64,000 nucleotides of DNA from Nocardioides jiangsuensis. GTDB lineage: Bacteria; Actinomycetota; Actinomycetes; Propionibacteriales; Nocardioidaceae. Below are positions 16,164-18,904 of the stretch, in pieces. The notes under the pieces are model-generated. The model saw only the letters and a list, made by a program, of their open reading frames with translations. It made no database searches and had not been told where the DNA came from. Position numbers and translations under genes: made by a program. Location: contig NZ_JAIEZQ010000001.1 in NCBI RefSeq assembly GCF_019679455.1, positions 1,426,001 through 1,490,000 of the forward strand. The letters are read 5' to 3'. Position 1 is the first letter of the stretch. Every line of letters begins with the position of its first letter.

Positions 16164-17207
16164 TCAGGTGAGGCCGATCGCCTCCCGGGCCGCCGCGAGC
16201 ACCGGGGCGGTCTCCGCACGGCACCGCTCCGCGCCCTCCGCGTAGACCCGCGCCACCACGTCGGGCGAGGCCGCGAGCTCGGCGTACCGCTCCTGCAGCG
16301 GCAGCAGCACGCCGAGCACCGCCTCGGTCGCACGCTGTTTGAGGTCGCCGTACGACGTGCAGCCCGCCGCGGCCGCGTCGACGCCCACGCCCTCGCAGGC
16401 CGCGACGACCTCGAGCAGGTTCGACACCCCCGGCTTCGCCTCGCGGTCGTGGCGTACGGCGCCCGGGCCGGTGTCGGAGTCGGTGACCGCGCGGGCGATC
16501 TTGCGACGGACGGTCCGCTCGTCGTCGAGCAGGTGGACCAGCCCGGCGCCGGACTCCTGGGACTTGCCCATCTTCGACGTCGGGTCCTGGAGGTCCATGA
16601 CCCGCGCGCCGGCCGGCGGCGTGGTGACCTCGGGGACGGTGAACACCTCGCCGTAGGTGCGGTTGAAGCGCAGCGCGAGGTCGCGGGTGAGCTCGACGTG
16701 CTGGCGCTGGTCGTCGCCGACCGGGACCCGGGACGCTCGGTAGAGCAGGATGTCCGCGGCCATCAGCACCGGGTAGGTGTACAGCGACACGCGGGTCCGC
16801 GGGCGGCCCCGGCCCTTCTCCTTGAACTGGATCATCCGGTTCAGCTCGCCGGTGTAGCCGGTGCACTCGAGCAGGTAGGCCAGCTCGGCGTGCGCCGGGA
16901 CGCGGCTCTGCACGAACAGCGTGGCCCGCTCCGGGTCGAGCCCGGCGGCGAGCAGGAGCGTCGCCGTCTCGCCGGTGAGCGCGCGCAGGGTCGCCGGGTC
17001 GTGCGGCACGGTCAGGGCGTGCAGGTCGGCGATCCCGAAGAAGCAGGTGGCGTCCTCCTGCTCGGCCGCCATCGGCCGCAGGGCGCCGAGGTAGTTGCCG
17101 AGGGTCAGGTGGCCGGTCGGCTTGAGCAGGCTCAGCCGCCGGTCGCCGTACGGCGTGGTGCCCGGACCGGGCAGGGGCGTGCTCCGGAGGGTCGGGGTGG
17201 TGGTCAT
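16164..17207 (-). CDS. trpS: Tryptophanyl-tRNA synthetase
   Basis: A 347-residue class Ic synthetase that charges tRNA-Trp. The HIGH-like motif is TGHLTLGN, the KMSKS loop is KMGKS (within TSKMGKSQE), and FFGIADLHALT and YTYPVLMAADILLYRA are conserved around the Trp site. It has GAGAGGA before the ATG. An attenuator with a Trp-Trp leader peptide lies directly upstream (17320-17361 and 17259-17280), so expression should rise when charged tRNA-Trp is scarce. Confidence 0.96.
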   Translation of the reverse strand: MTTTPTLRSTPLPGPGTTPYGDRRLSLLKPTGHLTLGNYLGALRPMAAEQEDATCFFGIADLHALTVPHDPATLRALTGETATLLLAAGLDPERATLFVQSRVPAHAELAYLLECTGYTGELNRMIQFKEKGRGRPRTRVSLYTYPVLMAADILLYRASRVPVGDDQRQHVELTRDLALRFNRTYGEVFTVPEVTTPPAGARVMDLQDPTSKMGKSQESGAGLVHLLDDERTVRRKIARAVTDSDTGPGAVRHDREAKPGVSNLLEVVAACEGVGVDAAAAGCTSYGDLKQRATEAVLGVLLPLQERYAELAASPDVVARVYAEGAERCRAETAPVLAAAREAIGLT

Positions 17208-17258
17208 GCGTGGGTCCTCTCGGGGGATGAGCCCGAAGGAGCCGCAGCGGAAACGACG

Positions 17259-17280
17259 ACGGCCGCCCTCGGGCGGCCGT
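17259..17280 (-). terminator. Attenuator terminator hairpin before trpS
   Basis: On the minus strand ACGGCCGCCC and GGGCGGCCGT form a perfect ten-base stem with a GA loop, followed by CGTCGTTTCC. The U tract is weak, as is common in high-GC actinobacteria. It lies between the leader peptide stop and trpS and is the 3:4 hairpin of the proposed attenuator. Confidence 0.7.
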
Positions 17281-17309
17281 TGTCGACGTGCTCTCGCGAA
17301 GCGTCGAAG

Positions 17310-17336
17310 GGTGGTCCGCCTAGTCGGCGGGCCACC
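17310..17336 (-). promoter_or_regulatory. 1:2 hairpin of the trpS attenuator, covering the Trp codons
   Basis: On the minus strand GGTGGCCCGCC (17336-17326) pairs with GGCGGACCACC (17320-17310): ten base pairs and one C-A mismatch, with a GACTA loop. The 5' arm contains most of the two Trp codons. GGCGG of the 3' arm can instead pair with CCGCC in the 5' arm of the terminator, giving an antiterminator. Confidence 0.65.
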
Positions 17337-17361
17337 ACGAGGTCACGAGCTGCGAGCGCAT
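17320..17361 (-). CDS. trpS leader peptide MRSQLVTSWWPAD
   Basis: A 13-residue reading frame with two adjacent Trp codons (17337-17332) near its end and a TAG stop inside the 1:2 hairpin. Trp is rare, so tandem Trp codons at this exact place, before a tRNA-Trp synthetase gene and followed by competing hairpins, mark it as an attenuator leader. There is no Shine-Dalgarno, but TACCCT ends seven bases before its ATG, so the transcript probably starts at the ATG itself. A ribosome stalled on the Trp codons would hold the 5' arm and let the antiterminator form. Confidence 0.75.
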   Translation of the reverse strand: MRSQLVTSWWPAD

Positions 17362-17368
17362 GTGCAGC

Positions 17369-17374
17369 AGGGTA
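17369..17374 (-). promoter_or_regulatory. -10 box for the trpS leader transcript
   Basis: TACCCT (TANNNT) on the minus strand, seven bases before the leader peptide ATG and inside the 52-base gap after mmsA. No good -35 is visible. Confidence 0.5.
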
Positions 17375-17413
17375 CCGCCCCGGGCCGTGCGGCGCCGGGT
17401 GACAGCAGGCGGG

Positions 17414-18904
17414 TCAGCGGGTCCGGGGGAAACCCAGGTCGACCTGCGACGTGGCCGGGTCCGGCCAGCGGGAGGTGACCACCTTGCCGCGCGTGTAGAA
17501 GCTGACCCCCTCGGGGCCGTACATGTGGGTGTCCCCGAACAGGGAGGCCTTCCAGCCGCCGAACGAGTAGTAGGCCACCGGCACCGGGATCGGCACGTTG
17601 ATGCCGACCATGCCGACCTCCACGTCGAACTGGAACCGCCGGGCCGCACCGCCGTCGCGGGTGAAGATCGCGGTGCCGTTGGCGTAGGGGTTGCCGTTGA
17701 CGACCGCGAGCGCCTCGTCGTACGTCTCGGCGCGGACCACGCACAGCACGGGCCCGAAGATCTCGTCGGTGTAGACGCTCATGTCGGGAGTGACGCGATC
17801 GAGCAGCGTCGTGCCGAGGAAGAACCCCGTCCGGGGAACGTCGGCCTCGCGACCGTCGACCACGACGGTGGCGCCGGACTCCGCGCCGGCGGCGACGTAC
17901 CCGGCGACCCGGTCGCGGTGCTCGGCGGTGATCAGCGGACCCATGTCGGTGTCGGGGGAAGCGCCGTCGCCCACCCGGAGCTTGGGCAGCCGGGCGGCGA
18001 TCGCGTCGACGAGCCGGTCGCCGACGTCCCCGACCGCCACGGTCACCGAGATCGCCATGCAGCGCTCGCCGGCGGCGCCGTACGCCGCGGAGACGGCCGC
18101 GTCCGCGGCCAGGTCGACGTCAGCGTCGGGGAGTACCACCATGTGGTTCTTCGCGCCGCCGAGCGCCTGGACCCGCTTGCCGTGGGCGGTGCCGGTCTCG
18201 TAGATGGAGCGGGCGATCGGCGTGGAGCCCACGAAGCTGACCGCGGCCACGTCGGGGTGGGCCAGCAGGCCGTCGACCGCGACCTTGTCACCCTGGAGCA
18301 CGGTGAAGACCCCGTCGGGCAGCCCGGCGTGCTGCCACAGGTCGGCGAGGAACAGGGAGGCGGACGGGTCCTTCTCGCTCGGCTTGAGCACGAAGGCGTT
18401 GCCGCACGCGATCGCGTTGGCGCACATCCACAGCGGCACCATCACGGGGAAGTTGAACGGGGTGATCCCGGCGACCACGCCGAGCGGCTGGCGGATCGAG
18501 TACACGTCGACCCCGACGCTCGCCTGCTCGGAGAAGCCGCCCTTGAGGAGCTGCGGGACACCGGTCGCGAACTCCACGTTCTCCAGTCCCCGGGCCACCT
18601 CGCCCGCCGCGTCCGCGAGCACCTTGCCGTGCTCGGCGGTGACCACCGCGGCGAGCTCGTCGGCGTGCCGGTGGAGCAGCTCGCGGAAGGCGAACAGGAC
18701 CGAGGAGCGCTCGGACAGGGAGGCGTGCCGCCACTCCGCGGCGGCCCGCTTCGCGTCGGCGACCGCGGCGTCCACGTCCGCCTGGTCGGCGAGCAGGACC
18801 TCGGCGGTGCACTCGCCGGTGGCCGGGTTGTGCACGGGCGCGGTGCGGGTCGACGAGCCGGGCGTCGAGACGCCACCGATCCAGTGGTTGATGCGTGCTG
18901 TCAC
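17414..18904 (-). CDS. mmsA: CoA-acylating methylmalonate-semialdehyde dehydrogenase
   Basis: A 496-residue aldehyde dehydrogenase superfamily enzyme that turns malonate or methylmalonate semialdehyde into acetyl- or propionyl-CoA in valine, beta-alanine and inositol breakdown. The catalytic Cys282 sits in GERCMA. Other segments are TPFNFP at 148-153, LKPSEKDP at 173-180, FVGST at 224-228 and AKNHMVVLPDAD at 251-262. The catalytic Glu of ordinary aldehyde dehydrogenases is replaced by the KNHMVV segment typical of the CoA-dependent family. It has a good promoter (TTGCCA, 16 bases, TAGTAT) six bases before the GTG. Confidence 0.93.
   Translation of the reverse strand: MTARINHWIGGVSTPGSSTRTAPVHNPATGECTAEVLLADQADVDAAVADAKRAAAEWRHASLSERSSVLFAFRELLHRHADELAAVVTAEHGKVLADAAGEVARGLENVEFATGVPQLLKGGFSEQASVGVDVYSIRQPLGVVAGITPFNFPVMVPLWMCANAIACGNAFVLKPSEKDPSASLFLADLWQHAGLPDGVFTVLQGDKVAVDGLLAHPDVAAVSFVGSTPIARSIYETGTAHGKRVQALGGAKNHMVVLPDADVDLAADAAVSAAYGAAGERCMAISVTVAVGDVGDRLVDAIAARLPKLRVGDGASPDTDMGPLITAEHRDRVAGYVAAGAESGATVVVDGREADVPRTGFFLGTTLLDRVTPDMSVYTDEIFGPVLCVVRAETYDEALAVVNGNPYANGTAIFTRDGGAARRFQFDVEVGMVGINVPIPVPVAYYSFGGWKASLFGDTHMYGPEGVSFYTRGKVVTSRWPDPATSQVDLGFPRTR

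Follow-up and report, generated by a model that had tools for sequence, protein, structure and literature searches.

A putatively leaderless Trp-Trp leader peptide and predicted transcription attenuator upstream of an auxiliary trpS gene in Nocardioides jiangsuensis and related actinobacteria

An auxiliary tryptophanyl-tRNA synthetase (TrpRS) gene of Nocardioides jiangsuensis is very probably controlled by a leaderless ribosome-mediated transcription attenuator. The gene lies in a stretch of 64,000 nucleotides (contig NZ_JAIEZQ010000001.1, positions 1,426,001 to 1,490,000), which is called the window here and to which all coordinates refer. The attenuator is a relative of a mechanism published for Streptomyces, and it is clear and widely conserved. 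Its parts are listed in Table 1.

Table 1 Features of the trpS attenuator region (feature, position in the window, strand, basis)
-10-like hexamer TACCCT	17369..17374	(-)	sequence; [TC]ANNNT at 6-7 nt gap in 69/71 related elements
Leader ORF MRSQLVTSWWPAD + stop, 13 codons, no Shine-Dalgarno	17320..17361	(-)	sequence and conservation
P0 5' arm, leader nt 2-16 (UGC.CUCGC AGC UCG)	17346..17360	(-)	MFE of free leader, duplex energy, homologous-helix covariation
Tandem Trp codons UGG UGG, codons 9-10	17332..17337	(-)	sequence; no variation in alignments A1 and A2
Segment 1, 5' arm of hairpin 1:2, UGGUGGCCCGCC	17326..17337	(-)	alignment, folding, covariation
Segment 2, GGCGGACCACC, partner of segment 1 or segment 3	17310..17320	(-)	alignment, folding, covariation
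P0 3' arm, spacer between segments 2 and 3, core GCGAGAGCA at 17297-17289	17289..17306	(-)	folding, covariation
Segment 3, terminator 5' arm; GGCCGCC 17278-17272 pairs also with segment 2	17272..17280	(-)	alignment, folding, covariation
Segment 4, terminator 3' arm, then CGUCGUUUCC	17259..17267	(-)	alignment, folding, covariation
trpS ribosome binding site GAGAGGA, 7 nt before ATG	17215..17221	(-)	sequence
Auxiliary trpS, tryptophanyl-tRNA synthetase, 347 aa	16164..17207	(-)	TIGR00233 283 bits, cut-off 176.75

The anatomy of the element can be read directly from the minus strand, where the leader starts with ATG at 17361-17359 and stops with TAG at 17322-17320. As the original prediction had it, the gap between TACCCT and the ATG is exactly 7 nt, and the leader has no ribosome binding site. 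The same prediction described a 13-codon frame ending in tandem Trp codons: the frame is as described, but the Trp codons do not end it, being followed by Pro-Ala-Asp, three further codons before the stop. No other short ORF with Trp-Trp in the 64-kb window had a -10-like box so spaced, and 20 shuffled versions of the window yielded two Trp-Trp short ORFs with a spaced -10, none of them with a terminator stem. In 71 trpS and trpE elements the motif [TC]ANNNT preceded the leader start codon with a gap of 6 nt in 49 cases and of 7 nt in 20. The strict form TANNNT was found at gaps of 6-7 nt in 46 of the elements and at none of the other gaps from 0 to 29. Just five of the 71 had an SD-like motif before the leader; it was absent from 66. 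A transcript start coinciding with the start codon fits both the fixed gap and the rarity of SD-like motifs, and transcription of the window leader is predicted to begin at the A of the ATG.

Three alternative hairpins were upheld by folding. Hairpin 1:2 (UGGUGGCCCGCC / GGCGGACCACC) has 10 pairs with one C.A mismatch (-20.2 kcal/mol), the antiterminator 2:3 reaches -20.9 kcal/mol, counting the hairpin in its loop, and the terminator 3:4 has -20.8 kcal/mol. The last two are mutually exclusive, having the arm GGCCGCC in common. This agrees with the original prediction as regards the hairpin over the Trp codons, with 10 pairs and one mismatch, and the ability of its 3' arm to pair with the 5' arm of the terminator. 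The perfect 10-base terminator of that prediction exists as an inverted repeat, while the stem itself can form nine core pairs, since the tenth pair would leave a loop of 2 nt, and a few more pairs beyond one mismatch. The U-tract of the terminator is weak (CGUCGUCGUUUCC), i.e. a strong GC stem is followed by just UUU after CGUCG. The whole leader of 154 nt folded better than all 200 shuffles (z = -3.9).

The first Trp codon is at nt 25 of the leader, the stop codon at nt 40 and the beginning of segment 2 at nt 42. When the leader was folded with a ribosome footprint of assumed size masked, a stalled ribosome masked segment 1 alone and a ribosome at the stop codon masked segment 2. With the A site on Trp codon 1 or 2, the antiterminator 2:3 was predicted with P=1.000 before the terminator 3' arm was made, and with the ribosome at the stop codon, or with no ribosome, no 2:3 pairing was obtained and the terminator had P=1.000. 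The ribosome-free leader folded into hairpin 1:2 and a further helix, P0, with the terminator formed. Once the complete terminator had been made, equilibrium favoured 3:4 in every state, the stalled ribosome included, and kinetic control, of the kind seen in other attenuators, is therefore required. The modelled states, together with the conservation in relatives, support the attenuation originally predicted.

From these features we infer a course of events that runs from transcription start through stalling to termination and gives P0 a role and the switch a physiological signal. RNA polymerase would start at the leader AUG and the ribosome would load onto the same 5' end. If Trp-tRNA is sufficient, translation would run to the stop codon, where the ribosome would cover segment 2, the 3:4 terminator would form and trpS would be off. 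When charged tRNA-Trp is short, either through Trp starvation or because a drug inhibits the housekeeping TrpRS, stalling on UGG-UGG would place the ribosome over segment 1, 2:3 would pair, the terminator would be blocked and trpS would be transcribed. With no ribosome, P0 would close around 1:2 and hold segment 2, leaving the terminator free and the gene off by default.

The gene behind the leader is the auxiliary trpS and not the housekeeping copy. The second trpS of the genome, located on another contig, is 48 % identical to the window copy and has no Trp leader upstream. The original prediction placed the control on trpS and did not recognise the gene as an auxiliary copy accompanied by a leader-free housekeeping one. 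All 32 genomes checked that had homologues of the auxiliary copy contained at least two trpS genes. Three other genomes of the genus lacked the auxiliary copy and had a single trpS of the housekeeping type. At housekeeping trpS loci the leader was found in none of 30. The window TrpRS is 55-60 % identical to the leader-linked enzymes of Streptomyces-like genomes, and judged by this identity and the shared leader, without a tree, the gene appears to be orthologous to the leader-linked Streptomyces copy. At the position corresponding to Gln9 of the B. stearothermophilus TrpRS, which presumably bears on indolmycin resistance, all 25 scorable housekeeping enzymes had Q, and each of the 46 leader-linked TrpRSs had another residue (K in 24, T in 20, V in 1, A in 1). 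The window enzyme has K at this position and keeps His43. KMGKS replaces KMSKS in 30 of the 46 leader-linked enzymes, and the scorable housekeeping ones have KMSKS. In this sample the attenuator goes with the spare TrpRS and never with the housekeeping one. Soil actinobacteria would hold the spare enzyme silent until charging of Trp-tRNA fails, plausibly as an inducible defence against TrpRS-targeting antibiotics.

For comparison with relatives, the TrpRS encoded at 16164-17207 served as the query that gave 80 named loci. In Nocardioides, Occultella and Actinopolymorpha, close trpS homologues had, with few exceptions, the leader, the hairpins and the fixed -10 spacing, and hence retained the Trp codons and hairpins on whose conservation the original prediction depended. 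The leaders were of the type V/M-L-T...QWWPA, were situated about 100-250 nt upstream of the TrpRS match and had GGCGG-ACC and a GC-rich terminator downstream. In five leaders, namely those of L008, L014 and three Dactylosporangium loci (L077, L082, L085), one Trp codon and an Arg codon (UGGCGG) stood in place of Trp-Trp, as in trpL2 of S. lividans. No leader of either kind was seen in homologues further removed, from Acidimicrobiia, Nitriliruptoraceae and Thermoactinomyces. Across the relatives, segments 1-4 hardly vary and show limited covariation for that reason; covariation of the element was higher than in all 500 shuffles.

It is improbable that the leader is mainly translational, the hairpins, or one at the trpS ribosome binding site, setting ribosome access with no termination of transcription. 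The trpS Shine-Dalgarno sequence does sit in a predicted hairpin, UCCUUCGGG/CCCGAGAGGA (window 17215-17241, minus strand), a GUGGGCUCUC...GGAG...CCCAUG-like motif recurs upstream of trpS in Nocardioides relatives, and the weakness of the U-tract also speaks for such control. However, the Shine-Dalgarno hairpins were scarcely more stable than shuffled sequences (mean z -0.49), and the 3:4 stem, which is GC-rich, near invariant and well upstream of the trpS start, has the layout of a terminator. The sequestering hairpin may form a second, translational layer that does not replace attenuation.

Even less probable is that the element is a conserved intrinsic terminator or insulator of the upstream dehydrogenase gene (TIGR01722), the short ORF being incidental. 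It does lie about 50 nt behind that gene, but in other genomes it stands before trpS or trpE, and the Trp codons, the reading frame, the start codon and the -10 spacing are all conserved; the conservation of the Trp codons in particular already largely refutes this explanation. T-boxes serve most aminoacyl-tRNA synthetase genes of Firmicutes (PMC1262725), and a T-box or another tRNA-binding leader without a translated peptide was considered here. The in-frame Trp-Trp ORF is conserved, however, and no T-box was found in a lax scan of 17150-17450, making such a leader very hard to credit. That scan gave chance-level matches only, no Rfam family matched the window at the gathering score, and the Rfam Trp_leader covariance model had no match at the gathering score nor at E values up to 5.

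Ribosome-mediated attenuation thus remains the preferred reading, and to the three hairpins correctly described in the original prediction a 5'-terminal helix, which it had missed, can be added. In P0 the 5' end of the leader is base-paired to the spacer that separates segment 2 from segment 3, and hairpin 1:2 is enclosed. In the window UGC.CUCGC pairs with GCGAG.GCA, extended inwards, with a duplex energy of -17.9 kcal/mol, and the helix is present in the minimum-energy fold. By itself the window P0 was not significant against shuffles (P=0.06); the case for it rests on the relatives. In Nocardioides the first leader bases GUGCU... form pairs with AGCAC in the spacer. Compensatory changes were seen where the start codon AUG is accompanied by AGCAU (L010, L015, L018), GUGCA by UGCAC (L013) and GACUUCC by GGAAGUC (L068). 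In an alignment of 50 distinct sequences, four of the five pairs had two-sided changes and 83.6 % of the cells were paired. The covariation score was 0.332; shuffles gave 0.166, with 0/500 reaching the observed value, and slid versions did not exceed 0.119. These figures are to be read with the alignment having been fitted to a P0-containing model, which favours P0, and the shuffled and slid controls allowing only partly for relatedness. In an alignment-free test the mean P0 duplex energy beat all 300 swaps among relatives in each type of trpS element (Nocardioides-type, n=43; Streptomyces-like, n=9; other, n=10). In trpE elements (n=7) it did not beat all swaps, and P0 is not claimed there. 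The helix includes the start codon in Nocardioides and begins at about nt 6-8 in Streptomyces-like genomes.

Relative to 1:2 and 3:4, P0 is a nested helix, but it would be knotted with 2:3, and for this reason it belongs to the off state. We tentatively suggest, as a possibility rather than an expectation, that P0 is a fifth working element of actinobacterial trpS attenuators, which would lock the off state without prompt ribosome loading and could limit late initiation. If this is true, translation initiation on a leaderless mRNA would be part of the switch, and through P0 leaderless initiation would be tied to attenuation in a way that can be tested. P0 was not found in the literature searched, in which the main papers on the resistant TrpRS, of 2009 and 2010, were not included.

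An auxiliary antibiotic-resistant TrpRS gene was reportedly found by Vecchione and Sello, in J Bacteriol in 2010, to be under ribosome-mediated transcriptional attenuation (cited in PMC4787780). The gene is trpRS1 of Streptomyces coelicolor, with an indolmycin-resistant product. The window resembles trpRS1 in having an auxiliary trpS besides the housekeeping copy and an attenuator, and differs in the two Trp codons of its leader and in P0, which in Nocardioides includes the start codon. The E. coli-type trp leader (Rfam Trp_leader) has the same four-segment logic and tandem Trp codons; it is SD-led, controls the trp operon and in the textbook model has no P0. In S. lividans the leader MMTRTCTQLWRAA of trpL2-trpS is leaderless by RNA-seq (PMC8079986), and like that of the window, for which a leaderless start is predicted, it is a 13-residue Trp leader before trpS, with two hairpins and no U-rich stretch, although with one Trp codon instead of two. 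A candidate attenuator of S. avermitilis trpS2 (Seliverstov et al. 2005, PMC1262725) is likewise a classical attenuator predicted before trpS, in other taxa and limited to one genome. The attenuator RNA of rnTrpL/peTrpL in Sinorhizobium meliloti also begins at the leader ATG, but this is an alphaproteobacterium and trpE(G) is controlled (PMC7298713).

Attenuators before trpS were thus predicted in Streptomyces in 2005, and a leaderless trpS leader is reported in S. lividans, so that the variant cannot be called uncommon, as the original prediction did. The P0 helix may be new, and so may the taxonomic reach of the element, by which the trpRS1-type attenuator is extended from Streptomyces to a set of Nocardioidaceae and other actinobacteria. 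The literature search gave nothing relevant on Nocardioides, the key resistant-TrpRS papers being outside it.

When 395 genomes of the class were searched with a covariance model of the element, 74 gave matches, and the best 30 of these matches were mostly before trpS or trpE. In the window genome the model matched the trpS element and the echo of this element on the reverse strand, and nothing else. An attenuator before this genome's own trpE was considered and rejected, there being no Trp-Trp leader in the 4.1 kb around trpE. Some large genomes, which are probably Streptomyces, had a trpE leader like TrpL1 of S. lividans (MFALSIQNWWWTAHPAAH compared to MFAHSTRNWWWTAHPAAH), and in these the other element preceded a TrpRS 55-60 % identical to that of the window. 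In the locus L146 (1495 onward, reverse strand) the element was present with the leader MIAYSFLWWPAS, and trpS was not found in the locus. In L134 (1501 onward) a Trp-Trp leader, VRTRIGMWWAADRRP, stood before a much more divergent TrpRS (35 % identical), which suggests that a further TrpRS lineage is under the control of the element as well.
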